IMG/VR virus record: IMGVR_UViG_3300036790_000194
Span: 1 to 62,329 of that record
DNA: 62,329 bases
Source of the DNA: a virus
Reading direction: 5' to 3' (one strand)
Shown: piece by piece, positions 1 through 48,703 of the stretch
Layout of the letters: every line of letters starts with the position of its first letter
Numbering within the stretch: the first letter of the stretch is position 1
Made by a program: the position numbers and the translations under genes
Notes under the pieces: generated by a model
The model's input: only the letters and a program-made list of their open reading frames with translations
What the model was told of the DNA's origin: nothing
Database searches by the model: none

Positions 1-131
1 ACCGAGATTGCCTGCGGAGGGCCGCCCTGAACGACGCCTGTGTATGTCGTTGTCGGGCCGCTGTAATCAGCTAACGCGACCGTTGCGATGAACGGCGCGA
101 GGAACAGGATTTTGGCGGGCAGATTTCTCAT
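1..131 (-). CDS. Tail-spike N-terminus with Sec signal peptide (partial, cut by window start)
   Basis: The ATG at 131 overlaps the TGA of the upstream gene (ATGA) and opens a frame that runs off base 1 after 43 codons. The peptide has a basic start (MRNLPAK), a hydrophobic stretch and ALADYSGP, a typical Sec signal peptide with an AxA-like cleavage site. The neighbouring spike also has ADYSGP right after its signal peptide. The continuation is inferred to be the reading frame entering at 62329, since both lie on the minus strand and that frame lacks a natural start. Direct joining of the window ends is off by one base, so a base (or 1+3n bases) is probably missing at the break. Confidence 0.7.
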   Translation of the reverse strand, partial: MRNLPAKILFLAPFIATVALADYSGPTTTYTGVVQGGPPQAIS

Positions 132-1927
132 GGCGTCGAAAATCCTATGCTATAAAACGGCCTGCCGCCCGTGGCGGAAGTTGACGTAATGATTTGAACG
201 GCGGTGTTTTGTCCAGCCGTAATAGACGCGCTGTCCGTTGTGTCTGTGCATGATGTATTGGTATTCGCGATCTGGCATGTGGGTCCGCTGGCTGGACTGG
301 CCCCGTTAACTCTCAATGTGCAGATGTCGGTGTTACCGGTACCGGGAGCAACGCCAACACTGCAATAGAAACTCTTGAATGTTCCAGTTATCGCCCACGG
401 GACGTTGATGCCACCCTCGGTTCCTGTCGTGCTTGTAGTGAACCCTTCCAGCGGAAAATATGCCGTCGTATTGGCCGTCAGGATGGCTAAAGCACCGCCC
501 GCCGCGACGCTGCGCGCCGTCGTGAGATAGGTCGAGCTACGGTTCCATATGTCTCGCGTCGCCAGATTAGGGACCGTCCACGACGGGAAAATCCCAAAAC
601 TCGGAACGAGCGGCCAATATCCTGGACCAATGACGATCTCAGAAAGATTGGCGTTTGTGATATCCCAAACATTCTGGAATTGAGTTGAAAGTGAATTCGA
701 CGCGGGGCCTACTGAATAGTCCGATATGTTCCACCCATTCGCGTTTACTTGAAATGCCGCCGTCGCAGCGTGCGTATTGTCGTCTTCAACGACCGCGCCA
801 AGAATCGTATCGTTCTCATAGCCGACCCCTGAAATCTGAACCGGGATTGTGCCGTCGCGTTCAAGCGGACGCGGCGCAACAAATCGAATGCCTGTAACGG
901 ACTGGCCGCTCTGCGCGTTCATCACAATGGCAGCGCCCGTTTCAGTCGCAAGCCGCAAGCTGTTGAACGTCCAAACACCAGCAATGCCACAACCGGACTG
1001 CACTCCCCCTGGACAAGAAGCTGCGACTGGAGAGAAAAGCTCTAATGCTGCAACCGATGTATGGTCGAACGCTGACATCGCATCCGTTGTGATATCATAA
1101 ATACTACCGTTCGTCAGATCGGCATAAAGCCCATACGGCTTTCCGACTCCATTCGTGCCAGCATTGAAGCATTGAAGCTCCACGTTCACCATCGTTACGC
1201 CATCGACGAACTGCCCTGTTGCCGGGGCGAGACGCACCATCGCTCCTGACGTATCGGAATTGCAGACGGAAGCTCCTGTATTGCCACCGTTAAACTGAAT
1301 GTTTGCCATATAGGTATTGGAACCCGCCGCGAACAGAAAATTTGAATGGTCATTTATTCCATTTTTGAAATCGCCACTGATGTTTACGAACGTACCGCGC
1401 GATGGCCCTTGCGTAGCGTCGCCCTGTTCAAACACGGATGAGGCATGATTGATAACGAGATTGGAAATCTTCCAGTCCGTGGCGTTCACGACATCGAGCG
1501 CAAACGTGTTGGCTGTCGGTGCGTTGTTAAACACCAAATTGAAATCGTGAATGTAGGGCGATATAGCTGACGTGCCATCGGCACCCAATGTAAAGAACGT
1601 CGTTGCGCTGGCCGAATCCGAAACTGGAAAGGTCAATCGAGTCGTTGGTCCCTGCCCGTATATTTCACCGCAACGTCCAGTAAGCGCCGGAGGGTTCGAT
1701 GCCAAATTCCATGTTCCACTCGGAAAAAATATGCCTCCGATGGTTCCGGCAATACAGTCGGTGATGGCGTTGGCAAAAGCGGTCGAATTGGCCGTAGCGG
1801 TTGACGAGGTGGTCACGCCGTAATTCGTAATAGGCACGATAGGAAGATTTAGCGGTCCGCTATAATCAGCATAGGCCGCCGTCACTGCCGATAGGCAGGC
1901 AATCGCAATAAGGAACTTGCGAAGCAC
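128..1927 (-). CDS. Secreted pectate-lyase-like tail spike/adhesin
   Basis: This 599-residue protein starts with a signal peptide (MLRKFLIAIACLSAV, cleavage near AYA-DYSGP). The body looks like a right-handed parallel beta-helix: an N-terminal segment with NSTAFANAI and GGIFFPSGTW, as in Pectate_lyase_3-type phage spikes, then many short beta-prone repeats. The C-terminal 90 residues have paired cysteines (FYCSV, DICTL, PTCQI, TSCTD) suited to disulfides outside the cytoplasm. The probable role is receptor or polysaccharide binding or depolymerisation at the tail tip; no catalytic residues can be assigned by eye. It lies between a small secreted protein and the second spike in the late operon. 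A signal peptide on a spike is unusual, because virion spikes normally assemble in the cytoplasm. Confidence 0.72.
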   Translation of the reverse strand: MLRKFLIAIACLSAVTAAYADYSGPLNLPIVPITNYGVTTSSTATANSTAFANAITDCIAGTIGGIFFPSGTWNLASNPPALTGRCGEIYGQGPTTRLTFPVSDSASATTFFTLGADGTSAISPYIHDFNLVFNNAPTANTFALDVVNATDWKISNLVINHASSVFEQGDATQGPSRGTFVNISGDFKNGINDHSNFLFAAGSNTYMANIQFNGGNTGASVCNSDTSGAMVRLAPATGQFVDGVTMVNVELQCFNAGTNGVGKPYGLYADLTNGSIYDITTDAMSAFDHTSVAALELFSPVAASCPGGVQSGCGIAGVWTFNSLRLATETGAAIVMNAQSGQSVTGIRFVAPRPLERDGTIPVQISGVGYENDTILGAVVEDDNTHAATAAFQVNANGWNISDYSVGPASNSLSTQFQNVWDITNANLSEIVIGPGYWPLVPSFGIFPSWTVPNLATRDIWNRSSTYLTTARSVAAGGALAILTANTTAYFPLEGFTTSTTGTEGGINVPWAITGTFKSFYCSVGVAPGTGNTDICTLRVNGASPASGPTCQIANTNTSCTDTTDSASITAGQNTAVQIITSTSATGGRPFYSIGFSTP

Positions 1928-2461
1928 CTATTTTGCCCCTACGGTAAGAGGGGTTGATGCGGCGCTCGCTATCGCGAACCACTGATCGGAAGGAACGTAT
2001 GTGCCCTCAAATGATTTGTCCCATAGAGGCGGCAGCGTAATCTCTCCCGCAGCGCAGGCCGTTCCGGTGATCGTCGCGGGATTAGTCGTGCTAATACAAA
2101 TCGTGGCCGTGGGACTCTGATTATGAAAATCCGCAAAGACTTTCGCCGTCGATGCAGCCAATATCGAACCGGATGAAGTCCCGACCGTGACACCAGAATA
2201 AGCTCCGGCTGAGTTGGTGGGAGCGGAGACAACCGTTCCCGTAAATGTGCCACTCGTGCAACCGTTGCCGTTTTGATCCTGCGTCTGCGGCATATTTCTT
2301 CCGACAGAGTATGTCGAGTTCGGGGAGCCGCAAGCCGTGACCACATTCAACAGCGGGGGCGTGGATTGCGCGCGCGCCTCGCTTTGCCACACCGCTGACG
2401 CGACAACCGCTAGACTAACATGCGCGGCGAAGAGAATTGCGCGCTTCACCGAATGTACCAT
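1928..2461 (-). CDS. Small secreted virion-associated protein, unknown function
   Basis: The ATG at 2461 (MVHSVKRAILF) overlaps the previous stop by 16 nt and gives a clean signal peptide ending near EARAQ. In-frame upstream codons reach 2605 but only overlap the preceding gene, so I rejected that start. The mature protein is about 145 residues, rich in Ser, Thr and Gly, with cysteine pairs (ACGSP with GNGCTSG, ATICIS with GTACAAG). It resembles small beta-sandwich accessory proteins next to spikes. I do not recognise a family. It could be a tail-tip or host-surface protein. Confidence 0.6.
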   Translation of the reverse strand: MVHSVKRAILFAAHVSLAVVASAVWQSEARAQSTPPLLNVVTACGSPNSTYSVGRNMPQTQDQNGNGCTSGTFTGTVVSAPTNSAGAYSGVTVGTSSGSILAASTAKVFADFHNQSPTATICISTTNPATITGTACAAGEITLPPLWDKSFEGTYVPSDQWFAIASAASTPLTVGAK

Positions 2462-2919
2462 ATCGTTGTCCCTTGCGAATTGTTGATGGTGATGTCTTGG
2501 TTGGGAACGCTGAGCGCCCATGACGATGAGCCGTCGAGCGTGTCGCTGCCGCTCATCTGAATCGTGCAGGCGTGCGCGGTCACGTCTATTTTCTTCACGT
2601 CCCATATTTGGTTCGGAAATAGACTTCCGAATGGCACCGTGATTACGATAGGTCCGAGGGTGGCGTCACACGGCCAAAGCTGGGCGGTGCCGTCCAGAGT
2701 CGTATTTGAACTGACGGTTGAGTGGACAGTATAAAGCCCGAGCGTGGGCGAGATACAGAGGCGCAATCCAGTGTCGAGGGTGATTGTCCGAATCTGTCCG
2801 ACTTGGCCTGAAATCGCCCCGCAGGCCGGAACAACCTGACCGGTCCCCGGAACGCCTTGTGCATGCGCCACGCCCGCAGAAAACAGCCCCAGAAGGAAGC
2901 CAAGCCAGATTCGCCGCAC
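2446..2919 (-). CDS. Small secreted protein with duplicated signal-peptide cassette
   Basis: The GTG start at 2919 is preceded by a Shine-Dalgarno sequence (AAGGGG). The protein of 157 residues begins MRRIWLGFLLGLFSAGVAHA-Q, a textbook Sec signal peptide. The mature part (Gly, Thr, Val-rich, three scattered Cys) contains a DGTAQLWPCDATLG segment and looks like a beta-rich carbohydrate-binding or decoration module. Its start region and leader are duplicated exactly 350 bp upstream, where the copy leads to a dead reading frame. Function unknown; the context is adhesins and spikes. Confidence 0.6.
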   Translation of the reverse strand: MRRIWLGFLLGLFSAGVAHAQGVPGTGQVVPACGAISGQVGQIRTITLDTGLRLCISPTLGLYTVHSTVSSNTTLDGTAQLWPCDATLGPIVITVPFGSLFPNQIWDVKKIDVTAHACTIQMSGSDTLDGSSSWALSVPNQDITINNSQGTTIWYIR

Positions 2920-2980
2920 GATTGCCCCTTACTGTTGCTCGAATAACACACATACCAAGATTTGTGCGGTTCGGTAAGGG
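2857..2980. repeat. 124-bp direct repeat, copy 1
   Basis: Identical to 3207-3330 over 124 bases (offset 350). It contains, on the minus strand, an untranslated leader, the Shine-Dalgarno sequence, the GTG start and the full signal-peptide coding part of the gene at 2446-2919. The copy ends just after the signal-peptide cleavage region. Confidence 0.95.
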
Positions 2981-3206
2981 GGTGAATTGGGTCACGCGAG
3001 CGCGCGTGCTGCGAATAGGAGCAAGCGTATTGCCGCTTGGCGCAGGCGGAATAGTGGCTTTCGAGACCTTGGGCGCGGCGCGGCTACGCGATGCGAAGAT
3101 ACTGCAAGCAGCAATTGCGGCTGCGCTGCCGGAGACGGCGGATAGCCAGCCTTCGACCAAGCGATAAGAGAGGGGTCTTTTTCTATCATGGCCGCGTGGC
3201 TTCAAA
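2981..3206 (-). other. Inter-repeat segment with decayed coding remnant
   Basis: These 226 bases lie between the two repeat copies. On the minus strand, ATG 3189 opens a 65-codon frame (MIEKDPSLIAW) that is basic and low in structure. A second frame contains an Ala/Ser-rich stretch (GWLSAVSGSAAAIAA) with no plausible ATG or GTG. I read this as leftover coding sequence from a gene replaced behind the duplicated signal peptide, not as a functional gene. Confidence 0.35.
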
Positions 3207-3269
3207 TTGTGCATGCGCCACGCCCGCAGAAAACAGCCCCAGAAGGAAGCCAAGCCAGATTCGCCGCAC
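3186..3269 (-). pseudogene. Truncated signal-peptide ORF (second copy)
   Basis: GTG 3269 lies inside repeat copy 2 and encodes the same leader as the gene at 2919 (MRRIWLGFLLGLF, then AGVAHAQ), followed by only FEATRP and a TGA at 3186. It keeps its Shine-Dalgarno sequence and lies directly downstream of the 1830-codon gene, so it should still be translated as a 27-residue peptide. Probably the remnant of an adhesin gene whose body was lost. Confidence 0.6.
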
Positions 3270-3330
3270 GATTGCCCCTTACTGTTGCTCGAATAACACA
3301 CATACCAAGATTTGTGCGGTTCGGTAAGGG
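3207..3330. repeat. 124-bp direct repeat, copy 2
   Basis: Exact copy of 2857-2980. It begins 6 bases after the stop of the polyvalent-protein gene (stop at 3336-3338), so it is the natural upstream region of the first secreted-protein gene in this part of the late operon. Confidence 0.95.
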
Positions 3331-3335
3331 ACGAG

Positions 3336-6300
3336 CTAGGGCTGGGCGGACTGCGCGTGGCGCTCCGACATCGGCCTTTTGGTGTGCGGCCCATCTAGCC
3401 ACGCCTTGAGACCGCTCGGGGAAAGTTCATGGGTCGACCAGCGCCGCTTAGGGCCGGAACCATCGGAGAACCCATCATCATAAATCGCCCGGGCAGCTTT
3501 GGAGGATTTGGCCCCAAAGACCAGTTTGTGTTCGTCGAATTTCTTGGTCTTGGGATCGAACTGGTTCACGACGAATATCCGAGTGCTTTCGGGATGAGGC
3601 CCAATGTAGGCGTCCACATGTTCATTATCGGCACCTATTGTGCGTTTTATGTAGCCGTAATGTGCGCTACTGTGTCGGTTCTCCCAAGGCTTTCCATCGG
3701 CACCAAGCCCTCGCCGCGCAACACCTTTCGGCGTCTCAATCGAAAGATCAAAGCCGTGGATCGTAACGTGGCCCTTGCGATAATTCCCGGCCTCGATTTG
3801 AGCAGGCGTTGGGTTCTTGTCTGCCTCCGCTGCGGCAGCATGAATGCGGCCGCCATCGGCATACTGCGGAGCTGATTGGGTAGCCTCGAACCCTGACTGC
3901 TGGATCATCCGCTGCGTGCGTGGCGAAACTCGGCTCTGTGGATTCAGCGACGTGCGGATTACCCATTTTTGGTAGCCGCGATCCATGCCGAGTGACGTCA
4001 TATGTTTTTCGGCCTCGGCAGTCTGACCGCTCAGGATTTGAGCGCGGATTGACGGCATCGCTTCGCCGATCTGATATTGTTGTTCGTCCTTGGCGCGGTA
4101 GTAGAATCCCGAGGCTTCCCCGCCCGGCGCGCCATGACTGACTGTGACGCCTGCCGCTGGAAGCGCGACCCCCAGTACGGCTTCGCCACGGGTGCGCGGG
4201 ATAGAAACCCCGAGCTTTTCTGCGGTCGGTGCGATTGCCGCCTTTGTCTCCGGCCCAAGGGTCGCGCCAAGGACGCTACCGGCCATCTGAGTCGGAAACA
4301 CAGAATCCATCGCGGCCATCACGATTTTTGCCATTGCTTTGGCATCTGCCGCAGGCGTCTTGTCGTAAGGGTCATAGAGCTTGCGCCCGTAACCGCGATC
4401 ATTGGCCACCGCTTCATATACTAGCCGCGCATAAGGACTCAATTTTCGCTTGAGAGTATCCATCGGTTCGTCGCCCCAATCCATCAGCTCTTCACCGACC
4501 TTGCCGGTTGGCATACGGCCATACAGCGCAGTTCCATCTTCTGCGTGCCCGATCAGGAATTTGTTGGTTTTGTCCGGCTCATTTTGGGCCGGTGGTTGGA
4601 AATTGTTCGGTTGCCCCATGCCTTGGCGAATAGCGTGCGCGGCGTAAGCCGCGCCATAATTGCCCAAGCGACTGAGACCCATGTCAATCAAGAGCATAGA
4701 GAGTGCCTTGCGCCGCACCACGCTCTGCACATTCTGCAATTCCTGAACGCCTTTGTCACGGAGGATTTGAGCCTGTACGTCGCGTGGAAGGCCGAGCGTA
4801 AAATCCTTGTACGCACCCAGATTGCCCAGCGTGAAGGAACGCGAGAACAGCATAAGATTTGCCGTCATGCGCGCGCCTTTGGACATGGCTTCCATCGGAA
4901 GCGCGCCCGCGTAGCGATTGGCAAAGTGCGCGGCGGCACGATCCGCCGATTCCGCGCTCATGCCCTGTTCTTCAAAATGCTTGGTCAGAGTCGAGAATAT
5001 GCCCATCTGAAGATCGGCCACGCGATCCCAGAGCATTGTATTGTGCCAGAAATCCCCGAAATGATCGATCTTGCGCTTGACGGCCTCGGCACCATCCTTG
5101 TCGAACAGCCCAACAGCATTGCCGATGGCTTTTGCCGTCCATGAGCGACCCGGCGCGATCTGCGGAGGCTCGGCAATCGCCGTAATATCCTGATTGAAAT
5201 ACCGATGCCCAATTGGGTCCATCCCGGCATCAAGCGCGCGACGCATCATTTCTGGGTCCCGCCGCGCAACAGCGCCCTCTCCGTAAAGCTGAATGCCCGG
5301 CTTCACCGCGCCATGCTCATCGGTGTAAAACGGCGTGAGCAGTTTCAGCGGTGCAGCAGGAAGCGCCTTGCCCCAGATCACCTGATTGTGCATCAGTGGC
5401 GACCACATGATCGTGGACATCATCCGGCCCTTCAGGTCCATCAGGCCCTGATAGAGCTTGTTTCCAGTTTTGCTCAGAACGGCCTTTAGCGGACCTTCAA
5501 ACTCTTTCGAGACGTAAAGCGGCTTGGCCTCGAACTGGGTTTGTCCATTCTGATCGAGCGCCGGAACCGTTTTGCCGGTTTCGTCCGTGACGAATTTCGG
5601 TCCCCATGTCTGAAATGCCGGATGGTCGAGCGTGAAGAAATCCTGCGGACTGGATGCGCCCCCTTCTTGCACAACAGGCTCGCCAACTTCCTTGCCCATG
5701 TCCTTGATGCGGTCGATCATCATGCGGCCAGCAATGGCCTTTTCCAGATTGCGCACGCCAAGCGCAACCGTGCGAACATCGTGAACAACGGTCGCGCCTT
5801 CGCCGAACTTCGCTTGCGCAGCCGCTTCGGTTTCTTCCGCCGTGTCATATTTGCGCTCGCGGATGTTACCAGTCGTGGTCGTAAGATTGCGCCCCACGGA
5901 GCCGGGCTTCTCAACATTACGGCCAACACGCTCCGCGCCCTCACCCGTCATGCGAACGACCATGCGGGGCACCCAGTAATCGACGCCTTCGCCCTTCACC
6001 ATGCCGAGTTGTTTTGCGACATCGAACGCGGATGTGGCGCGCTTATTCAACTCATCCATCGTCGCGCGCTGATCGGGAGGCAGTTTGTTCAAGCCCTCAT
6101 TAGGTCCGGGCACTTTCCCGGCGCGGAGCAGATCATCCTGCTCATCGCCTGCGTCCCACATGGCCTTGCGGTCTTCTGGCGAATAGGTCTTTTCCAGATG
6201 CTCATCGACCTTGCCCCACTCGAAATCTGCCCGGCGCTGTGTGTTCATAAAATCCTTGGCGGTTGCGCGGGCGCGAGGCGAGCCTGCCGCCATCGGGGAT

Positions 6301-8828
6301 AACGCCATCTTCATATGCTCGCCTAATTCCTTGACGGAGACGGGCATGTATTTGTCGATGGCCGAGGAAATCCTGCGCCCGACTTCATCCGCGCCTTCGC
6401 CCATCAGGCGTGCGTAAACCCCACGAGGCGTTTTCGATTGCTCCTGAACCTCCGCCGGTTCGCGCTGATACGCAGTCGGTTCCGAACGTGCCATCCGCAT
6501 GGGTAGGTCACGGGTTCCAACTTCGCCAGACTGAATGCGCGAGAACACATCGTTCGGCGTTGCGTCCGCACCAAAAGCGCGGCGCACATGATCGCCGATC
6601 TGCTGGAGCAATTGTTGCAGCCGCCCGAACGTCTTGGCGATGAATGGCGGCAGTTTCGATGGCGCACGCCGCCAGTTCGAAAATTCCTCAGCGACCGCCT
6701 CTTCGGTTTTGAGCGCATCGTCGCCGCCCGGATAGCGGGCATCAATGTTGTGCTTGCCGATCCAGTCTCCGGCTTTGGCCGCGCGTTCCAGCGCATTCCA
6801 TTCCGCAGGCTTGATGAAATTACTGTTTTTCAGATAGTGGATTGCCTCATGGCGTAGCGTGCCTTCCGCATCGGGACTTTCCAGCGACCACGCGATCAAC
6901 CTGCGCATTCCATTGGTGTACGTCGCACCCAGCGTGCGTGCGTTCGATGCAGTTCCGGCCTGACGGTCGAATTCGGAATCCGTTTCGAGCGCGCGCGCGG
7001 GAATGACCTTGGCGCTCGGGACGATCTTCTGCGCAATCTTGCCCACGCCATCAAGGATGCGCTGTTCGTGCGGGAGCGGATTTTCCGGCAGGTGTGCGAT
7101 CAGGTCGTCCGCCAGCGCGACACGCGGACCGAGCGTATTGATCGGATTGTCAATGTCGCCGCGTTGGAACAATGTCTGTTGTTCTGCTGCTGGTTCCGCG
7201 AACATGCCGCCCGGATCACGCTGCGCGACATCGGCACCCATGCGCCCATGACCACTCGCTTCCTGCGCTGCGGCAAGTTGCCGGGCCGATTGCTCGGCAC
7301 CGGGAATTATGGATTGAGGAAGGCCTTCGGCACCGGCTTCGTACTGGACAGTCGGCTCCAATGCAGCACTACTACCGTTTGCTTCTCGATCATCTGGCGC
7401 AGTTTCGACCGCTCCTGATGGTTCAAGGTCGGCTGGCGGAGAAGCGTCTTCAAAGCCTGAAGCCTCTTCATGCTCAGAGCCAATGTCTGCGCCCGGTTCA
7501 TAACCTTCATCTTGGAGCCTTTCCTGCGTTTCGGGCAAGAGGTCGTGGAAATCCTGATCGATGCCATGCTCGGCTTCCGCAAGGTGCGGCTCCGGCGATT
7601 GCGAGGCGCGGTAATCGAGCAGTTTCTGCGCTGCGGTTGGCACGTCATCGCCTGAACCTATACCAGCGCGGCCCAATTCCTCGTCCATTTGGCGACGGCT
7701 CAGGAGGTCGAAATAATCCTGATTAGCGGGGTGATAGACCTTGTCGCCCTGTGCCTCACGGCCCAGAAGATCGTAAAAATCGTTGAGGTCGGTATTGTGG
7801 ACATCCTCTTCGGGGTTTCCGCCAAACCAGCCTTCTTGCGCCAGATGTTCGCGCATGTAGTCGGGCGTCATACCGGAGCCGTTTATCAGACCCGGATATT
7901 TTACGTCCTTGAGCGTGGCCCCGATTTCTCCGGCGTCTGGTAGCGGCGCTCCGTTCTCATCCTTCGTAGCAATCCCGCCTGCCTGCTTGATCGCCTGAAA
8001 CAGGGATTGCGGTTTCGGCATGGGTGAGTTTGCCTGACGTACGTAGCTTTCGGCAGCGGCGACATCCTCGGGATCGTGAGGGTCGATAAGGTCGGACGGC
8101 GGTGTGGCTGCGACAGGCTCAGCCGTCACCGGTGCCGTGGGCGGTTCAGGTGCAGCAACCAGATCATGCGGCGGCTCAACCCGCTTTCCCTTGGCAGCGT
8201 AATCGGCAAGCGCGGTCGTGGGCGCCAACGCTGGGCGCAGCTCCGGCTCTGCCATGCTGGGCCGCGCAACGGCACCCTCGGCTTCTGGCACAACGGCGGG
8301 ATGCTCGGCACCGACGAACATTGACGCCGCACCCAGATCGCCAGCCGCGCTTTCGGCCTGAGCCTGAGGCATTCCGTAACCCATAAGGGTTGGGACCGGA
8401 GCCGCCTCAGCCCCATAGGCGAGACTTTCCAGCGTGCGGACGGCTGCGCTGACAGGTGCCTCGACTACCGAAGCCGCCGTGCTATCCATGACTTTTGGGA
8501 TGACTGCGGGCCAACCGGATGCTTTCGCCTCGGCAACATCGGCAGATTTCTTTTCTGGAGATGCGGTCCACGGTTCCTGCCACGGCTCAGCCATTGCGTT
8601 CGCGACATAGCCAAGCGGATTCAGGACTGGATTGCCTTTCCAGTCTGGCTGGCCCGCTGGTTTCTCTGGCGCGGATGCGTGGGCCTGATACTCAGGCGAG
8701 TTCGGACTTTCGCCGGGCAATGGCACGGGCGGCGGCTCACTCGGTCCGCCCATAAGATCGCTTGGCGGCGCAAGCAGATCAGATGGAGGTCCGCCGACAA
8801 GATCGTCAGGCGGATTGAGCGCATCCAT
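3336..8828 (-). CDS. Giant polyvalent virion protein with metallopeptidase and InPase-like domains
   Basis: This 1830-residue protein is a phage polyvalent protein, probably packaged and ejected with the DNA. The N-terminus is disordered and Pro-rich with a repeated PPSDL-type motif (about six copies to residue 480). A zinc-peptidase motif LRHEAIHYL places H660, E661 and H664 in an MPTase-PolyVal-like domain. A long helical middle (about 800-1500) looks like a large polyvalent-protein-associated region. The C-terminus (about 1680-1815) matches the InPase-like polyvalent domain: YRKGHVTIHG, AHYGYIKRTIGADNEHVDAY, then a substrate-type tail (DPKTKKFDEHKLVFG). Proteins of this kind are thought to enter the host with the genome. 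ATG at 8828 follows the previous stop directly. The short motif ADGGRI near the end recurs in other structural proteins here. Confidence 0.8.
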   Translation of the reverse strand: MDALNPPDDLVGGPPSDLLAPPSDLMGGPSEPPPVPLPGESPNSPEYQAHASAPEKPAGQPDWKGNPVLNPLGYVANAMAEPWQEPWTASPEKKSADVAEAKASGWPAVIPKVMDSTAASVVEAPVSAAVRTLESLAYGAEAAPVPTLMGYGMPQAQAESAAGDLGAASMFVGAEHPAVVPEAEGAVARPSMAEPELRPALAPTTALADYAAKGKRVEPPHDLVAAPEPPTAPVTAEPVAATPPSDLIDPHDPEDVAAAESYVRQANSPMPKPQSLFQAIKQAGGIATKDENGAPLPDAGEIGATLKDVKYPGLINGSGMTPDYMREHLAQEGWFGGNPEEDVHNTDLNDFYDLLGREAQGDKVYHPANQDYFDLLSRRQMDEELGRAGIGSGDDVPTAAQKLLDYRASQSPEPHLAEAEHGIDQDFHDLLPETQERLQDEGYEPGADIGSEHEEASGFEDASPPADLEPSGAVETAPDDREANGSSAALEPTVQYEAGAEGLPQSIIPGAEQSARQLAAAQEASGHGRMGADVAQRDPGGMFAEPAAEQQTLFQRGDIDNPINTLGPRVALADDLIAHLPENPLPHEQRILDGVGKIAQKIVPSAKVIPARALETDSEFDRQAGTASNARTLGATYTNGMRRLIAWSLESPDAEGTLRHEAIHYLKNSNFIKPAEWNALERAAKAGDWIGKHNIDARYPGGDDALKTEEAVAEEFSNWRRAPSKLPPFIAKTFGRLQQLLQQIGDHVRRAFGADATPNDVFSRIQSGEVGTRDLPMRMARSEPTAYQREPAEVQEQSKTPRGVYARLMGEGADEVGRRISSAIDKYMPVSVKELGEHMKMALSPMAAGSPRARATAKDFMNTQRRADFEWGKVDEHLEKTYSPEDRKAMWDAGDEQDDLLRAGKVPGPNEGLNKLPPDQRATMDELNKRATSAFDVAKQLGMVKGEGVDYWVPRMVVRMTGEGAERVGRNVEKPGSVGRNLTTTTGNIRERKYDTAEETEAAAQAKFGEGATVVHDVRTVALGVRNLEKAIAGRMMIDRIKDMGKEVGEPVVQEGGASSPQDFFTLDHPAFQTWGPKFVTDETGKTVPALDQNGQTQFEAKPLYVSKEFEGPLKAVLSKTGNKLYQGLMDLKGRMMSTIMWSPLMHNQVIWGKALPAAPLKLLTPFYTDEHGAVKPGIQLYGEGAVARRDPEMMRRALDAGMDPIGHRYFNQDITAIAEPPQIAPGRSWTAKAIGNAVGLFDKDGAEAVKRKIDHFGDFWHNTMLWDRVADLQMGIFSTLTKHFEEQGMSAESADRAAAHFANRYAGALPMEAMSKGARMTANLMLFSRSFTLGNLGAYKDFTLGLPRDVQAQILRDKGVQELQNVQSVVRRKALSMLLIDMGLSRLGNYGAAYAAHAIRQGMGQPNNFQPPAQNEPDKTNKFLIGHAEDGTALYGRMPTGKVGEELMDWGDEPMDTLKRKLSPYARLVYEAVANDRGYGRKLYDPYDKTPAADAKAMAKIVMAAMDSVFPTQMAGSVLGATLGPETKAAIAPTAEKLGVSIPRTRGEAVLGVALPAAGVTVSHGAPGGEASGFYYRAKDEQQYQIGEAMPSIRAQILSGQTAEAEKHMTSLGMDRGYQKWVIRTSLNPQSRVSPRTQRMIQQSGFEATQSAPQYADGGRIHAAAAEADKNPTPAQIEAGNYRKGHVTIHGFDLSIETPKGVARRGLGADGKPWENRHSSAHYGYIKRTIGADNEHVDAYIGPHPESTRIFVVNQFDPKTKKFDEHKLVFGAKSSKAARAIYDDGFSDGSGPKRRWSTHELSPSGLKAWLDGPHTKRPMSERHAQSAQP

Positions 8829-8830
8829 GG

Positions 8831-11221: not shown

Positions 11222-11287
11222 GCGCAACTCCCAAGGTCAATTTCGAGGTGTTGCATGAATATCACAAGCGGAGAAAATCGCGAAGCC

Positions 11288-11761
11288 CTAACGTCGAGTC
11301 CAGAATGTGCCCCCTATCTGCTGTCCGTACCGCCCCCAAAGGCGCAATTTGGCTGGAAGCCGATTCAGGCTCAGGACGGTGTTCTCAAGCACGATATCGT
11401 AGCCCACGCGGTTCGCCATATCTTCGCGGTGCCACGCGGCAAATTGAAATAATTCATCCGCGAAATCAGACGCCCGCTCATCCGGGTTGACGAATAGCCA
11501 GACCTGACTCAGCATCCATTCGCTGGTGAACCATGGTTTGACGGCCTGAATCCCTATCGAGGCGGCAATGCCGTATTCGCCGTCGATGATGCCCGCGATA
11601 CCGTTCTCGCCTCGGCAGATTTTGCCGACCGTGCGCGCGACATCCACCCTATCGACTGGAAGCCCAAGCGAATTATCCGCTTCCAGATCGAGGACGAGTT
11701 GCTCATAAAGCGCGGTGACATCGGTTGTGGTCGCGATGCGGACGGAAGCAGGCTGCTCCAC
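11288..11761 (-). CDS. GNAT-fold internal virion protein (T7 gp13-like)
   Basis: 157 residues from a GTG at 11761 with GAGGTAG upstream. The sequence fits the GNAT-like fold of T7 gp13-type internal virion proteins: an N-terminal strand/helix (ASVRIATTTDVTALYEQL), a central beta-hairpin (GIAGIIDGEYGIAASIGI) and a C-terminal helix with the aromatic block LRLWGRYGQQIGGTFWTRR. The acetyl-CoA loop (R/Q-x-x-G-x-G/A) is not convincing, so catalysis is doubtful. It lies with other candidate ejected proteins, supporting a role in the internal head core. Confidence 0.65.
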   Translation of the reverse strand: MEQPASVRIATTTDVTALYEQLVLDLEADNSLGLPVDRVDVARTVGKICRGENGIAGIIDGEYGIAASIGIQAVKPWFTSEWMLSQVWLFVNPDERASDFADELFQFAAWHREDMANRVGYDIVLENTVLSLNRLPAKLRLWGRYGQQIGGTFWTRR

Positions 11762-11767
11762 AAATCT

Positions 11768-12655
11768 CTACCTCTTCGGTTCTGGCGCTGATTTCAAGAA
11801 CTTCATCTGGTGCTTGCGTACGCGGCTGACAAGCTCTCGCATCGCTTCATGTCCGGCCGCAAGATCGGTTCGAGCCTTGGATTTCCCAAGCTTACGCATC
11901 CGATGCCCAATCTTCTCCACGTCATTGCGATGCACGACCATCTCGCCACCGGCAAGGATGACATCAGATAAGGGTTCGCGACCACCGCGAGAATATCCAA
12001 TATCGGGCAATTGCGTGACAAGATCAGAGGCATTCACCTGCGGTCCCATAGACTGAAGAGCAGAATCGCTAAGCGCCTGTATTGGTACGGAAGATGAAAC
12101 GGGCGCCGGCGAAGTCGATGCCGGACTACCGGCGAACTGCGGCGGCGCACCGCCAACTGACGACGGCGTTTGTGAGGATTGGCTTTCAGCGCGCGGCGGA
12201 TTCGGGATGTTGTGCCCGCGTCCATGCGGTGCCGCTCCCGCACCATAAGGCGCAGGCGAGCCAATAATCTCGTTCATCATGCGAGCGCCAGCGAGAGAGT
12301 TGCCCTGCCCCAAGCCAGACACGACATCGGCAGGCACGACGAATGAATCCGCCGCAACGCTCATCGGTAGCCGATCCGTGCGTCCAGATGTATCGCTGGC
12401 GATGAAGCCACCGGGATGGTACTGGGAATCGTAACCAGCATTCCTCATTTCGGCGCGCTCAACCATCGGATCGCCGCTCGCCGAAAATCCACCGGACGCG
12501 AGATGTTGTGCGTCCGCTATGCCGCCAGACGCGCGCCCGCGGTGGAAATTACTTTCCGCAATCGCCACGATTTGCTCGTGCGAACGCGGGCGAGAGCCGT
12601 GGTGGGCAAGCTCGTGGATCGCTTCCGCCACCGGCTCGCCTTTACGCAGCGGCAT
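11768..12655 (-). CDS. Structural protein with DUF6496-like N-terminus
   Basis: ATG 12655 (MPLRKGEPVAEAIHEL) overlaps the previous stop by 14 nt; the in-frame extension to 12739 only overlaps the neighbouring gene. The first 45 residues resemble the DUF6496 pattern of phage proteins (MPLxKG, a helix, then IVAIAESNFHRGRA). A Gly/Pro-rich linker with ASGGIA and ASGGF motifs follows, then a compact domain (GEMVVHRNDVEKIGHRMRKLG) and a basic helical C-terminus. Probably an internal virion or head-tail accessory protein; no enzyme signature seen. Confidence 0.55.
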   Translation of the reverse strand: MPLRKGEPVAEAIHELAHHGSRPRSHEQIVAIAESNFHRGRASGGIADAQHLASGGFSASGDPMVERAEMRNAGYDSQYHPGGFIASDTSGRTDRLPMSVAADSFVVPADVVSGLGQGNSLAGARMMNEIIGSPAPYGAGAAPHGRGHNIPNPPRAESQSSQTPSSVGGAPPQFAGSPASTSPAPVSSSVPIQALSDSALQSMGPQVNASDLVTQLPDIGYSRGGREPLSDVILAGGEMVVHRNDVEKIGHRMRKLGKSKARTDLAAGHEAMRELVSRVRKHQMKFLKSAPEPKR

Positions 12656-12977
12656 GTTCCGCCTTCCCAAAGATATCTTCGGCGGTGGCCTCCCGGACTG
12701 GAGCGTCCGGTTCAGGCTCTGGCGCTTCTTCCGCCGCATCCAGTTCGCTTTGCGGGACCGCGTACCAGCCTTTGAGATTCATGGGCTGGCCGACCTGATA
12801 GCGGCACGGGATGAAATCACCCTTTTTGTACGGGTGGCTTTTCGATCCGGTCGTGAAATGCTCAAGCTGGGCGATGACCATTTGCGGACTGACGACTTTG
12901 ACGATCTTCCCGCGCGTGCGCTCATCGGGCAATTCAACGGTGATGATATCGTCGATTTTTGGCTGGTAGTCCGACAT
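12642..12977 (-). CDS. Small phage structural protein, SH3-like N-terminus
   Basis: 111 residues. The first 85 residues have alternating hydrophobic strands (IDDIITVELPDERTRGKIV, QMVIAQLEHF, DFIPCRYQVG) suggesting a small beta-barrel; the C-terminus is acidic and Pro/Glu-rich (AAEEAPEPEPDAPV). It is coupled by overlap to the DUF6496-like gene. I do not recognise a family. Confidence 0.5.
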   Translation of the reverse strand: MSDYQPKIDDIITVELPDERTRGKIVKVVSPQMVIAQLEHFTTGSKSHPYKKGDFIPCRYQVGQPMNLKGWYAVPQSELDAAEEAPEPEPDAPVREATAEDIFGKAEHAAA

Positions 12978-13006
12978 GGGCAGGCCTCAAGAGGTACGAA
13001 AGCTTA

Positions 13007-13438
13007 CTACGATTGCGACTGAATCAGCAAATTCGCTCCATCGATCACATAGGTTTTCACCTTCCAGTTCGACGATAGCGTATCGCTCGCCCCCCCGAGA
13101 ATGGTCTGGCCGCCAGACGGCAGCACCGTGATATGGTCGGCCCCGGCGATCCCTGCTCCATCAGCAACCCCCCATGGCCCTCCGCTCGACGGTAGCGTGA
13201 CATTGATTGCAGCCGCAACAGTTTGGCGGATCACGAACAGGCCGGAGGCGACGTTGGGAAACGCCGTGGCGATATTCAAATCCCCAGCCTGCGTCCACGG
13301 ATAGACTTGAAATGGTTCCAGTCCACCAGTGCCCAAGCTCGCCACAATCTTCTGCAAAAGCTGCAAAAGCTGGTTGAATTGAGCCTGACTGCCAGCGGCT
13401 TGGCCGAGGTTTGTGAGTGGCGACCCGATTCCGCTCAT
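13007..13438 (-). CDS. Small beta-rich tail-associated protein
   Basis: 143 residues; ATG 13438 overlaps the stop of the tail-hub gene (ATGA). The first 35 residues form an amphipathic helix (QLLQLLQKIVASL). The rest is beta-rich and ends with a repeated-strand C-terminus. It resembles small phage proteins that follow the tail hub (a needle or hub-plug role is possible). No motif is diagnostic. Confidence 0.45.
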   Translation of the reverse strand: MSGIGSPLTNLGQAAGSQAQFNQLLQLLQKIVASLGTGGLEPFQVYPWTQAGDLNIATAFPNVASGLFVIRQTVAAAINVTLPSSGGPWGVADGAGIAGADHITVLPSGGQTILGGASDTLSSNWKVKTYVIDGANLLIQSQS

Positions 13439-15519
13439 GGACGTTTTCCAGCCTGCGTCGCCGTATAGCGAGTGTTGCCGAGCCGCCAGAAACTACCGAG
13501 TCCAGACGACGAAATCTGGATCGAGAAGAACCTGCCGCGCGCCCGCACGATCTGAAACGGCGGACCAGCCGCGGGCGTCCACAAATAAGGCCCGTAGGTT
13601 CTGACGGGGCCGATAGGATAATCTTGCGCGAACACCGTGATTTGAACGGTCTGGTCCCCGCCCTGGGCGATGAAGTCCGCTGACAGCCGCTCCATGAAGC
13701 CGAGAAGCGTGCCCTCCTGAATGGAAAACCATCCGGTTCGCACCGATGAAAGCAGTGCCCCCCCATCGGCATCATTGGAAGTCTCATGCTGCTGCAGAAG
13801 GCTGGAAGGATCACTCCCAATAGGCGCACCTAATACATTGTCATCTACCCATGCAGTACGGGCAGACTGAGCGGGCTGGCTGTTCACGATATCATCGTAT
13901 GTCCACGAATTCTCACGGATGTTGTATGTGATCCGCGCATCGACTTCGCCGCTACCGGATGCTGAAGGAAACGCCCAGCTTATTTCCTGAAACCACGAGT
14001 TAACCTGACAGTTCGTTTTGTCGATCTGAAGACGGTTCAGGTTGCGCCATAATTTATCCCACACCGGACATGGAATCATCTGGATGCTGTTGCCATCGAA
14101 CGTGAAGAACCCATTCGATGAAATCCAGTAAACCAGATTGCGGTAGACGCCCGCGCCACGCGCAGCCACCAGATCGACGCCGACCGCAATCTTGTTGAAG
14201 CCCCAGACGAGTTCTGAAAGCCCCGTGCCGCCCAAATATGTCATCAGCCACATTTCAATGTCGGTCCAGATGACATTGAAGTTTGGCGAGGAAATCCCGC
14301 CAACCAGCCGAGAACCGGATGGCACGCGATAAGAACCTGCCTGATTGGTCGATTTCGGATACCAGTCGGTGAAGTCCTGTGAGTCGCACCAGCGCAGCAG
14401 CAAGGGATCAAACTGGTTGTTCACGACATCATCGACGCCGAGCGCGATGACCATTTGCTGCGGAGCGGAGACAAAGGAGACATTCACTTCTTCAGGCGGC
14501 GATTGCGCGCCGGGAAAATTGATCGCATCGAGCGGCACCGCGACGGGTGAACCAATGGGCGGTTGCCACACGTAGAGGGGCGAGCCGGTATAGTTGCCGA
14601 TCAAGTCCTGTCCGAAATTGTCCAGAAACCATTGCCGGAGCGGAAGCGTCACAGTGCCCTGATAGCCAACACCATATGGGCCTTGACCATATGGCCCTTG
14701 GCCATACCCCCCCGCCTGCACAACCACCGCAGATGAGAGTCCGCTCGCGATCAGATACTGAATCTGTGCATTGCCGCCGTTTTCTCCTGTGGGGCCTGAA
14801 TTCGCATTCGCGTGTCCGCCCGGTTGAATCTGGAATGTGTTTGGGTCCAGAACATGCGAGACAGTGTAATTGCCGAGCAGCGTGAACCCGCCGATGACAA
14901 GCTGAACCTGAACGGCAAAGATTGCGCTCGCGCTGAGGCCGTGGTTGGGCAGCGAGACGTTGACGTTGGGAAGTCCAAAAAACACCTGAAACGTCGGAAC
15001 CGCGCCTCCGCTCGTGACAGATGAAGTGGCGTTGGACGCGGCAATAATCTGGTAATCGTTTGCATCGAGTGATGTCGATATTTGATACAGGCCTTGCAGG
15101 ATCAGTCCGCCAACAGAAACCGGAATGATGAGATTGATCCAATCGCCTTGCGCGGCCCCATTGGCATTCGGATCATTGATGGTAACGACATTGCTTCCCA
15201 TCGTAGTGGAAAACTTGACGGCTGGATTTGTCGTCTGCCGGATAGGCGTTATATCATAGAGCGCGCCGCCGTAATAAATCTCCAGCCGCTGGTCCGTCCC
15301 GCAGGCGAGATAAGGATTGGCGTTGAGGTCAGCCCATGCGTGCATGCCACGGCAAATTCCGGTCAGCGGCGTCGCCGTCAAATGGAGCCAACCACCCAGT
15401 TTCTGAGGTAGCCCCTCGAAGAACCTAACATTCTGACTGAAGCTAAAGCCAGCCTCATTCAAAAGCGGAGATTGCTCGACATCAATTCCAGGCTGCATTT
15501 TGAGAGAGGCGTAAGGCAT
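13435..15519 (-). CDS. Tail hub/nozzle protein (P22 gp10-like) with two FCCH-like insertions
   Basis: 694 residues. The start (MPYASLKMQPGID, then FSFSQNVRFFEGLPQKLGGW) and the repeated WISSNGFFTFDG, EISWAFPSA and ITYNIRENSWTYD blades are typical of the beta-propeller tail-stabilisation/nozzle protein of short-tailed phages (P22 gp10, T7 gp12 type). Residues about 108-158 and 183-232 are two copies of a small domain with the pattern NxVxxPxHGL, VGGxxLxGxY, DxNxFQI, which is also inserted in the adaptor protein encoded at 18082-19083. A Gly/Tyr repeat (YGQGPYGQGPYG) follows. The protein would close the tail below the adaptor ring. Confidence 0.75.
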   Translation of the reverse strand: MPYASLKMQPGIDVEQSPLLNEAGFSFSQNVRFFEGLPQKLGGWLHLTATPLTGICRGMHAWADLNANPYLACGTDQRLEIYYGGALYDITPIRQTTNPAVKFSTTMGSNVVTINDPNANGAAQGDWINLIIPVSVGGLILQGLYQISTSLDANDYQIIAASNATSSVTSGGAVPTFQVFFGLPNVNVSLPNHGLSASAIFAVQVQLVIGGFTLLGNYTVSHVLDPNTFQIQPGGHANANSGPTGENGGNAQIQYLIASGLSSAVVVQAGGYGQGPYGQGPYGVGYQGTVTLPLRQWFLDNFGQDLIGNYTGSPLYVWQPPIGSPVAVPLDAINFPGAQSPPEEVNVSFVSAPQQMVIALGVDDVVNNQFDPLLLRWCDSQDFTDWYPKSTNQAGSYRVPSGSRLVGGISSPNFNVIWTDIEMWLMTYLGGTGLSELVWGFNKIAVGVDLVAARGAGVYRNLVYWISSNGFFTFDGNSIQMIPCPVWDKLWRNLNRLQIDKTNCQVNSWFQEISWAFPSASGSGEVDARITYNIRENSWTYDDIVNSQPAQSARTAWVDDNVLGAPIGSDPSSLLQQHETSNDADGGALLSSVRTGWFSIQEGTLLGFMERLSADFIAQGGDQTVQITVFAQDYPIGPVRTYGPYLWTPAAGPPFQIVRARGRFFSIQISSSGLGSFWRLGNTRYTATQAGKRP

Positions 15520-15520
15520 A

Positions 15521-16267
15521 TTACGCCGCTTTCAGGCCGGCAGTCGGCTTCGTCTGGCGCGGGAACATGTCGGCGTATTTCTTGCGCGCCTCTTCCACGG
15601 CGGCAGACTGGAGCATTTCCTGATATTGCATGTCGTACGATTTCACCAAATCTGGATCGCGCTGGTAATCGGCAAACCATCTCATGCTGAGAGTGACATA
15701 CAGATCGGGCAAATTCAGCGTCAAGAAATTCGTGGTGTTGGTGGCCGACAATTCCACGAAGCGTTGCGTTCCGACCACCTCAAAGCCATAGGCCTGATCG
15801 GGTGCGGGGCCGACGAGAAACGTATTGCCGTCATTGACAGTCCATTGCACGGGACCGATATTTGCACCTAGTGACGCATCGCTTGGCCATGCAAAATCAA
15901 GGGCTGCGCGATTGACGAATTCCAGTGGCGCTTGCGCAGTTCCGCCCCCACCATAGGCACCGGAGCCATAAGCATTCTGGCCGTAGCCAGTTCCACCCGT
16001 TATAGGCCTGATCGAACTCACGACGACGAATTTCCCGTAGGTCGTGGGGAAAGTCTGGAGGCGTTGGTTGGGAACAAACGCCGCGTTATTATCCGTCACG
16101 ATAGTGTTGAGAAAATCCAGATCGCGCTGGAGGCGCAATTCCGTGTAGTCGATGGCGTTCGGATAGATCGTGTCGAATGCCGTGCCGGTCGGGGTGGCCG
16201 ACGAAGGGCTAACTATTAGGTATTCCAATAGCGTGCAGACCGCCTGAATCCAACCTTTGTAATCCAC
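15521..16267 (-). CDS. Tail accessory/adaptor-type protein
   Basis: 248 residues from GTG 16267. It begins with a helix (YKGWIQAVCTLLEYLIV), has the helical segment YTELRLQRDLDFLNTIV, and ends with WFADYQRDPDLVKSYDMQYQ and a basic tail. The YxxMLxxA C-terminal helix resembles gp4/adaptor-family proteins of short-tailed phages. It lies directly upstream of the tail-hub gene, with a single untranslated base between stop and start. Confidence 0.55.
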   Translation of the reverse strand: MDYKGWIQAVCTLLEYLIVSPSSATPTGTAFDTIYPNAIDYTELRLQRDLDFLNTIVTDNNAAFVPNQRLQTFPTTYGKFVVVSSIRPITGGTGYGQNAYGSGAYGGGGTAQAPLEFVNRAALDFAWPSDASLGANIGPVQWTVNDGNTFLVGPAPDQAYGFEVVGTQRFVELSATNTTNFLTLNLPDLYVTLSMRWFADYQRDPDLVKSYDMQYQEMLQSAAVEEARKKYADMFPRQTKPTAGLKAA

Positions 16268-16268
16268 G

Positions 16269-17756
16269 TCACAGCACCCAGCTTACCAGCACGGCACCAT
16301 TGCCGCCTGTACCACCCGTCACGTCCGAGCCGCCGCGCATACCACCTGCCCCGCCAGCGCCAAGGCCATTTGCGCTTCCGCCATTGCCGGTCGTGGCCGC
16401 AATGCAGAGTGCACCGCCACCGGTTCCGAACGAAGAATTCCCGCCGCCACCCGAACAACCCGTCGTCGCGTTGGAATAGCCTGCCTGCCCGTAGCCGCCC
16501 GGAGCCTGCGCGGATATGACATTCGTCCACGCCAAGGCAAGTCCGGTTGCACCAGCCGTCGCCACATTGGCGTTGAGGCGATTACCTTGCGAGATCGAAA
16601 CCCTGCTCGCATCAGGAGAACTATTGCCCGGCAAGCCGCCTTTCGCGACGACAATGCTTGTGGCCGCATAGGTGAGTGTGGTGTCACCACCAGTATTGGC
16701 CGATGTTGCGCCACCACCGACACTCACCGTGACGGTCTGTCCGGCAGTAAAGCCGCTAAAGTCCGCAATGACTTCGGATCCCGCCATGCCTCCGGCACCG
16801 GCAGCGCCGGATGATGTCGTCCCTGCGCCGCCACCACCGCCGCCGCCAATGGCGTGAAACCGAAACACAGTCGCCGTTGTAGCTGCGGCAGGAATCGTAA
16901 AGCTGCCATTGGAAGTGATGAGTTGTTCGTTGAGGACCGGGATTACAGTTGCGGAGGGCGATGCCGAAGCCCCGCTTTCATTGGCCAGCATTGTGCCATT
17001 CGCGATTGCTGCAAGGCCCGCTGCCGGAAGTTGCTGAAACGTCGGGTCCGCCGATGCACCATTGGACAGAAGCGCGTAGCCACTCGTGCCTGCAGCGGTC
17101 GGATTGACACCTGCCGTTCCGGCCCCGACGAGAACACCGTGGTTGGTGAGCGTCGCGCGTCCCGTGCCCCCTTGCGGCGCACTCAATGGAGTCGTGAGGC
17201 CAGCAAGTGATGTGATGTCCGAGTTGGCACCAGAAGCCGCCGCTCCCATGCCGAGCGTATCGACAGCGCGATGGACGTTTGTGCCATCGCTGATGAGCAG
17301 CGCGCGTCCGCCTTGGGGGATGGAAATAACCGTCCCGGCAGGATTTCCCGTGCCGTCATTCGCACCCGCGCCGAGCGTGAAGGCCCCGGTCGTGCCATTG
17401 AACACGGTGAATAGTTCGCAGCCGCCTTGCGGGTACAGAACGTCGATATTTCCCGTCAATGTGCCGGTTAAGATGAAACTCATATGCCGGGATTGGTCCG
17501 CAGCGCCATTGGCGACCGTCAGGACGACGTTGGAATTGCCTGCTACCGACAGGCTCAGAGTCGAACCAACGGCAGCGTCGATCAGCGTACGGCCCGTATT
17601 CTCAAGCGTGCCCCATGTGTTGGTGACAGAGGGGTCGCCCGGCTGAGGCTGTGGCATTCTGACGCAAGCCGAGAACGTAGTTGCCGCATTTACGGGAGCT
17701 GAAAGTATGCCAGCCAACATAGCGACGCTTAAAGCTGCGGTGACGAGATGTTTCAT
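16269..17756 (-). CDS. Secreted glycine-rich tail fibre/adhesin
   Basis: 495 residues; AGGGATAA precedes ATG 17756. It starts with a signal peptide (MKHLVTAALSVAMLAG, cleavage near VNAA). The middle has a tail-fibre pattern (NTWGTLENTGRTLIDAAVG, LTGNIDVLYPQGGCE, then PQGGTGRATLTNHGVL, a motif seen in phage tail fibres). From about residue 300 it is a glycine-rich adhesin domain (GGGGGGAGTTSSG, GGYGQAGY, GAGGAGGMRGG), reminiscent of the polyglycine-sandwich receptor-binding domains of T-even gp38-type adhesins. The likely role is receptor binding. It lies among tail genes, away from the other secreted spikes. Confidence 0.7.
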   Translation of the reverse strand: MKHLVTAALSVAMLAGILSAPVNAATTFSACVRMPQPQPGDPSVTNTWGTLENTGRTLIDAAVGSTLSLSVAGNSNVVLTVANGAADQSRHMSFILTGTLTGNIDVLYPQGGCELFTVFNGTTGAFTLGAGANDGTGNPAGTVISIPQGGRALLISDGTNVHRAVDTLGMGAAASGANSDITSLAGLTTPLSAPQGGTGRATLTNHGVLVGAGTAGVNPTAAGTSGYALLSNGASADPTFQQLPAAGLAAIANGTMLANESGASASPSATVIPVLNEQLITSNGSFTIPAAATTATVFRFHAIGGGGGGGAGTTSSGAAGAGGMAGSEVIADFSGFTAGQTVTVSVGGGATSANTGGDTTLTYAATSIVVAKGGLPGNSSPDASRVSISQGNRLNANVATAGATGLALAWTNVISAQAPGGYGQAGYSNATTGCSGGGGNSSFGTGGGALCIAATTGNGGSANGLGAGGAGGMRGGSDVTGGTGGNGAVLVSWVL

Positions 17757-32542: not shown

Positions 32543-33029
32543 CGGGCTTTTCTATGGATTTGGAGATTGCAAACTCGCTGAAGGCTGGATCCAAGCGTCC
32601 GGCATCCTTCAAGACGATATTGGAGACGGGGGAGGGAATCGAACCCTTATTCGTCCGGTTTTGCAGACCGGCGTTGGACCCAGCCAATTCCCTCGTCAAT
32701 CGGGTTTTTTCAACATTGGAGGCGATAAGTTCTCGTTTATATTTTTCCATAAAAGCTTCCGCGTTGCGCGTGCGCTGCTGCTCCGCCAGCAAAAGTATAT
32801 ATAACTTAAAAACTGGCGTCTGCCTTCGCCGATCTTGTTCTGAAATCGAGGGGCGGCCCTCAAAGGGTGTATGTGTTATAGCGATGTCGGTAGCCACGCG
32901 AACGGTAGCATCCGCAGACATTTCCCATGGGTCGATTCGGACTACCAAACGCCCGAGAGCGCCCCACCGCCTCCAATAATAGCCCCATCGAAGGCTACTC
33001 AACGGTTGCCACGGAAAAACGATCCTCAT
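32529..33029 (-). CDS. Hypothetical protein with tRNA gene embedded in its 3' part
   Basis: 166 residues; AGGAG lies eight bases before ATG 33029, and the stop overlaps the start of terS by 14 bases, so translation through the whole frame is plausible. The N-terminus is Trp/Arg-rich (RWGYYWRRWGALGRLVV); the middle has a helical segment (FKLYILLLAEQQRTRNAEAFMEKYKREL). From about codon 112 the frame is shared with a tRNA-Cys gene on the same strand. Either the true coding part ends before the tRNA in the original gene, or the tRNA arose or inserted within it. No family recognised. Confidence 0.5.
   Translation of the reverse strand: MRIVFPWQPLSSLRWGYYWRRWGALGRLVVRIDPWEMSADATVRVATDIAITHTPFEGRPSISEQDRRRQTPVFKLYILLLAEQQRTRNAEAFMEKYKRELIASNVEKTRLTRELAGSNAGLQNRTNKGSIPSPVSNIVLKDAGRLDPAFSEFAISKSIEKPDAAS
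32621..32697 (-). tRNA. tRNA-Cys (anticodon GCA)
   Basis: Reading the minus strand from 32697: acceptor GACGAGG pairs with CCCCGTC at the other end (6 of 7 pairs); a D arm with TTGG/CCAA; a clean anticodon stem CCGGT/ACCGG with loop CTGCAAA (anticodon GCA); a T arm with loop TTCGATT; discriminator U, as expected for tRNA-Cys; and an encoded CCA at 32621-32623. Total 77 bases. It lies in the late operon within another reading frame. It may supply Cys tRNA for cysteine-containing secreted spikes. Confidence 0.85.
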
Positions 33030-48202: not shown

Positions 48203-48703
48203 ATGAAGTTCCTTCTTTCTGCTATATCACTCCTCGCCTTTCTTGCATGGGCCGCGGCCCGCATAGCTCTCGGCATTCAATTCAATATTGGATGTAACGA
48301 TTATATTTCGCAGGCCGCTTCATCCCCCGATCCATCCATCGCGGCCCAACGTCTGGATGCGGCGATTTCGTATGCAGATGCGCACAATCTGACATCTGGC
48401 AACACAGGAATTTTCTTCACCTTCCCTAAAAACGATGTCGGATTCTGGTACAAGCGCCTGACCGATAGCCGCGCAATTCTGCGCGCGTTGCCGCCTGGCG
48501 ATGCGCCGCTTGAAGTCTCAAACACATTGATGCGTGTTCGGGAAACCCTTGTCGAAGGCGGCAAAGACGGGGACGCGGTTGTAAGCCCATCTGGAATTTC
48601 AGCCTTTCCAGATAACGCCGCATTCTTCTGGTGGGGCGCGGTATCGTTTTTCGCGCTCCTGCTTTTCACGGCGCTGGCGGCCGTTGAATCCGACCCGTTC
48701 TGA
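48203..48703 (+). CDS. Two-pass membrane protein
   Basis: 166 residues from ATG 48203 (GGAGG nine bases upstream). Signal-anchor-like N-terminus (KFLLSAISLLAFLAWAAARIAL), a periplasmic domain (about 105 residues) with AISYADAHNLTSGNTGIFF, and a C-terminal TM (AAFFWWGAVSFFALLLFTALA). Such proteins occur in phages of alphaproteobacteria; role unknown. Confidence 0.55.
   Translation: MKFLLSAISLLAFLAWAAARIALGIQFNIGCNDYISQAASSPDPSIAAQRLDAAISYADAHNLTSGNTGIFFTFPKNDVGFWYKRLTDSRAILRALPPGDAPLEVSNTLMRVRETLVEGGKDGDAVVSPSGISAFPDNAAFFWWGAVSFFALLLFTALAAVESDPF

Follow-up and report, generated by a model that had tools for sequence, protein, structure and literature searches.

We find that a viral contig of 62.3 kb (IMG/VR record IMGVR_UViG_3300036790_000194; its full 62,329 nucleotides are here called the window) codes for five fibre or spike proteins, all on the minus strand, that begin with textbook Sec/signal peptidase I leaders. 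The usual view is that the spikes and fibres of phage tails are both produced and assembled in the cytoplasm, a reducing environment. The features of the leaders, their retention in homologues and the cysteine content of the proteins behind them indicate that these fibre and spike proteins are very probably exported from the cytoplasm; that they are then docked onto the virion has a likelihood slightly better than even.

The contig is classed as linear in IMG/VR and encodes a terminase, a portal and a major head protein, together with an SU10-type adaptor, a needle-like stabilization protein and a DarB-like/InPase protein; the minus strand is the coding strand of the late genes. The last-named product is an 1830-aa protein (3336-8828) with a C-terminal inorganic-pyrophosphatase-like domain (PF18823), which PHROGs also ties to DarB-like antirestriction proteins. 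The features on which the analysis turns are the following:

16269-17756, minus strand: Gly-rich tail fibre; leader at 17685-17756 (MKHLVTAALSVAMLAGILSAPVNA, then ATT), predicted cut VNA/ATT; 4 Cys in the mature part
15521-16267, minus strand: head-tail adaptor protein, SU10-type (PF24175); adjoins the leadered Gly-rich fibre
13435-15519, minus strand: P22-needle-like 'stabilization' protein; used as the query for finding relatives
3207-3330, identical to 2857-2980, minus strand: 124-nt direct repeat (100% identity) that takes in the leader of the 157-aa gene and the sequence upstream of it
2446-2919, minus strand: small, putatively secreted fibre-like protein of 157 aa; leader at 2860-2919 (MRRIWLGFLLGLFSAGVAHA, then QGV), predicted cut AHA/QGV; 4 Cys in the mature part
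1928-2461, minus strand: small, putatively secreted protein of 177 aa; leader at 2369-2461 (MVHSVKRAILFAAHVSLAVVASAVWQSEARA, then QST), probable cut ARA/QST; 4 Cys
128-1927, minus strand: spike 1, 599 aa; leader at 1868-1927 (MLRKFLIAIACLSAVTAAYA, then DYS), predicted cut AYA/DYS; 10 Cys in the mature part
1-131, minus strand: 5' end of spike 2, running off the contig; leader at 69-131 (MRNLPAKILFLAPFIATVALA, then DYS), predicted cut ALA/DYS
59936-62329, minus strand: probable rest of spike 2 (797 aa, 14 Cys), its reading frame still open where the contig ends

At 2919-1 the leader ORFs, four in number, are tightly packed, with Shine-Dalgarno-like sites and overlapping or abutting start and stop codons. 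The 157-aa gene has a GTG start with the Shine-Dalgarno site AAGGGG; the 177-aa gene likely starts at the internal ATG at 2461 rather than at the ORF start at 2605, and thereby overlaps the last 16 nt of the 157-aa gene; the GTG start of spike 1 lies at the base next after the stop codon of the 177-aa gene; and the ATG of spike 2 overlaps the spike 1 stop (ATGA). The two copies of the 124-nt repeat stand 226 nt apart, just past the stop codon that closes the 1830-aa gene, and what had been described as a truncated leadered copy is a sixth leader ORF, a leader-only dead end of 27 codons (3269-3186) that begins inside the repeat. The repeat is a recent duplication, a gene conversion or an assembly artefact, and would fit gene exchange behind a shared leader. 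The contig ends, 1 and 62329, each interrupt a spike-like ORF, and the two ORFs share a strand; this suggests that the genome is circularly permuted and that a small gap separates the ends. The open ORF 62329-59936 is probably the rest of spike 2; a direct join of 131-1 to 62329-59936 was rejected since the frames mismatch, and a few bases are therefore missing at the contig ends. Immediately downstream of spike 2 lies a gene for a DUF5675 protein (59478-59942; its Tlde1-domain match is sub-threshold), possibly a member of the lysis module.

N-termini were scored by combining a von Heijne weight matrix with rules on the charge of the n-region and the hydropathy of the h-region. Eight E. coli proteins known to be secreted rank high on this scorer (10.5-17), although one of them, MalE, narrowly fails the h-region cut. 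The window has 28 late genes, of which only the five fibre and spike genes pass, the other 23 being without a leader; shuffled N-termini of the same five genes pass at rates of 0.4-2.4%. All five leaders combine a positive n-region, an uncharged h-region and small residues at -3 and -1, and none places a Cys immediately behind the predicted cut, at +1, as a lipobox for signal peptidase II would. The leaders that the preliminary description had read on the two spikes, the two small proteins, the Gly-rich fibre and the truncated copy were all located, and the five full leaders have predicted A-x-A-type cleavage sites. Outside the late block and on the opposite strand, a further ORF (48203-48703, plus strand) opens with a leader-like segment, MKFLLSAISLLAFLAWA.

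The label 'spike' reflects a putative beta-helix nature judged on the sequence pattern alone: the window spikes had no family match in Pfam or PHROG searches, and a single-sequence structure model of spike 1 reached a pLDDT of 38, too low for use. No close relatives of the two spikes and the two small proteins were recovered from IMG/VR. Among the INPHARED isolates, where low-complexity filtering may hide some homologues, the sole hit for the leader proteins of the window was a marginal one (E 0.01), between the 157-aa protein and a haloarchaeal virus. Both spikes share the predicted mature start DYSGP (1867-1853 and 68-54, minus strand) right behind the cut, which could be a docking motif; none of the relatives searched has DYSGP following a leader.

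To place these leaders in a wider context we collected relatives through the needle protein, which gave 13 contigs, most at 34-39% identity, and then 80 contigs plus 7 MAG contigs when an alignment of the needle proteins served as the query. When the relatives are pooled with the window, 39 out of 1218 genes were called as leadered with a Shine-Dalgarno site or coupled start, against 8 of 2430 in a shuffled-start control; a few of the 39 calls are clearly false, owing to a wrong start or to genes that do not encode fibres, and the calls also miss some true leaders. The leadered genes of the relatives are fibre-like and mostly unrelated to each other. One related contig, L067, has three tandem leadered ORFs as in the window, and its leadered product L067:5139-5828 is a weak homologue of the 177-aa protein. 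Leader-bearing glycine-rich fibres are also present in L006 and L101; as in the window, the L006 gene sits immediately upstream of the gene for the adaptor. In the examined parts of their contigs, many relatives have no fibre with a leader, and hence export is not required for this type of virion.

One leadered group recurs, a fibre family with the motif C-x9-C-G-N (CGN) at the mature N-terminus. The leader stands just ahead of the motif in each of the nine members first found and in two later ones (11 in total), nearly always finishing in AxA followed by Q (one has AxS); a Q or G precedes the Cys, so that no lipobox Cys stands at +1. For five members we modelled random substitutions at the level of nucleotide divergence seen among them: the expected leader survival is 2.5-12% per pair, and all five keep the leader, which is therefore kept more often than neutral drift predicts. 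Searches for CGN fibres were negative in the INPHARED isolates (again, low-complexity filtering may hide some) and in 385 genomes from the class to which a Bosea MAG belongs.

If the leader proteins form disulfides in an oxidising compartment, their cysteine counts should be even. The pairs noted in the preliminary description are borne out in the window, where the mature parts have 4, 4, 4 and 10 cysteines and the spike 2 fragment 14. Over the whole leadered set, the mature proteins average 1.53% Cys, and the count is even in 28 of the 29 with any Cys (about 18 even and 1 odd when the CGN family is set aside). As a control we used 51 dereplicated leaderless fibres of the same lineage that share an N-terminal domain; these have 0.69% Cys, with 14 even and 28 odd counts. 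The difference in parity is significant by Fisher's test (p = 2e-8, or 5e-5 when limited to proteins with at least two Cys, for which the leaderless counts are 14:14), in a comparison that is post hoc, having been conceived once the pairs had been noticed in the data. The export signals of the window proteins and the paired cysteines in proteins of the same kind in related viruses together suggest that tail parts are folded in an oxidising space beyond the inner membrane and not inside the cell, the usual site of phage particle assembly. The sole tRNA gene in the window is a tRNA-Cys(GCA) (32621-32694, minus strand); a tie between it and the cysteine-rich fibres was considered and dropped, since the leadered relatives have no tRNA-Cys in the contig parts examined.

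The connection to the virion comes from the Gly-rich fibre, in which the leader is followed by a tail-fibre N-terminal domain and then by a Gly_rich_2 domain (PF21722; 33.7 bits against a Pfam gathering cut-off of 24.3). Iterated profile searches detected homology over the N-terminal ~100 residues (E 9e-24) and recovered 67 leaderless homologues in the lineage, the window copy being the only leadered member. A structure model of the domain built from 48 sequences (pLDDT 84) clearly matches phage tail-fibre proteins in a viral structure library; against the PDB, the phage chains returned by VIA-align, tailspike chains among them, scored Z 5-7 and are no more than suggestive, and Foldseek gave no significant match. 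The leaderless family, which includes L014:8183-9991, L003:8656-9252 and gp50 of Roseobacter phage CRP-902, shows 21-43% identity to the window domain. It belongs to podovirus-like phages with the SU10-type adaptor and needle, in which, as in the window, it is a late-block gene near the adaptor and needle genes; in L006 and L014 the domain is encoded between these two. The window protein differs from this family in its leader, and its cysteines are even in number. Its predicted mature start lies within two residues of the start of L014, the closest leaderless homologue (43%). This coincidence suggests that the leader was added ahead of a tail-fibre domain, and that the predicted cleavage would restore the usual N-terminus.

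Taken together, these observations are best explained if the fibres and spikes are made as Sec precursors. In the late phase of infection the host Sec translocon would export these precursors and signal peptidase I would cleave them, after which the mature proteins would fold and form their disulfide bonds in the periplasm. Lysis would then mix periplasm with cytoplasm, allowing the mature proteins to dock onto tails assembled in the cytoplasm. Such late docking is feasible, given that the P22 tailspike, which joins as the last assembly step, can bind particles in lysates; unlike the window spikes, it is cytoplasmic and leaderless. For the four leader proteins other than the Gly-rich fibre the case for docking draws on position and composition only, and the domains behind their leaders are candidate virion-binding domains. 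Of the preliminary suggestion of export followed by decoration of the virion, the export part is well supported by the leader features, their retention in homologues and the even cysteine counts, and the decoration part is plausible in that the leader of the Gly-rich fibre precedes a tail-fibre domain.

A real though clearly less probable alternative is that export and disulfide bonding do take place but the leadered proteins do not belong to the virion, having their function in the periplasm or, once the cell has lysed, serving as free lectins or depolymerases, with roles such as receptor masking, clearing of surface polysaccharide or superinfection exclusion. The leaders and paired cysteines by themselves require export only; the tail regions of phages may contain exported non-virion genes, such as lambda lom (PMC12309495); and the small tandem proteins, with about 137-147 mature residues, are unlike complete fibres. 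Against this, the leader of the Gly-rich fibre precedes a domain of tail-fibre type that is otherwise leaderless and is encoded between the adaptor and needle genes, and a leadered protein of a relative (L068:5022-7805) has a pectate-lyase spike domain scoring above the Pfam cut-off.

It is improbable that the hydrophobic N-termini remain uncleaved as signal anchors which tether the proteins to the inner membrane until lysis: although it is well established that phages use SAR and signal-peptide endolysins (PMC6116005, PMC3765740), SAR domains have no c-region, whereas the window leaders have A-x-A-type sites shortly past the h-region and nearly all CGN leaders finish in AxA before a Q. No muralytic domain was found in the leader proteins of the window. 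Least probable of all, and very unlikely, is that the leaders are a neutral by-product of captured host secretion sequences or misassigned start codons with no export in infected cells, as the duplicated 124-nt leader copy (which indicates that such cassettes can be duplicated) and an internal Met in the Gly-rich fibre (MPQPQPGD) might allow, since leaders survive divergence beyond the neutral expectation, the start codons have Shine-Dalgarno-like sites, a start at the internal Met would delete the N-terminal strand of the domain, and even cysteine counts go with the presence of a leader.

Several known systems share elements with the export and docking that we favour. Phage endolysins are routed through Sec (PMC8951688, PMC8878798, PMC3765740, PMC6116005), and Lys44 of the Oenococcus phage fOg44 and the SAR endolysins of P1, phiKMV and JG068 resemble the window proteins as late products that pass through the host Sec system before lysis; they are lysis enzymes, whereas the window proteins are fibres and spikes, and the SAR endolysins further differ from the window leaders, which have cleavable c-regions. 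Lambda Lom and similar proteins are likewise encoded by signal-peptide genes amid tail genes (PMC12309495), but Lom is an outer-membrane beta-barrel, whereas the window proteins are GSTN-rich, low in charge and fibre-like, one of them with a tail-fibre domain. The streptococcal PblA and PblB of phage SM1 are, like the window proteins, of the tail-adhesin kind; they reach the cell surface without Sec leaders, by holin/lysin permeabilisation (PMC2920869). A full-text literature search returned no report of Sec-exported tail fibres, an absence that is weak evidence given that most subscription journals lay outside its coverage.

In a broader sense, we consider the chances evenly balanced that this group of phages builds part of its virion extracytoplasmically, with Sec-matured, disulfide-bonded fibres joining the tails at lysis and the leaders behaving as an exchangeable module that is gained and lost among fibre genes. 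If so, a Sec-exported, disulfide-bonded class of fibres would give tailed phages a second assembly compartment, would account for the use of disulfides by fibres and would make the phages dependent on the Sec system and oxidative folding of the host. It would also bear on the laboratory production of such proteins, for which periplasmic expression would be relevant, and on the annotation of leadered genes within the tail modules of phages.
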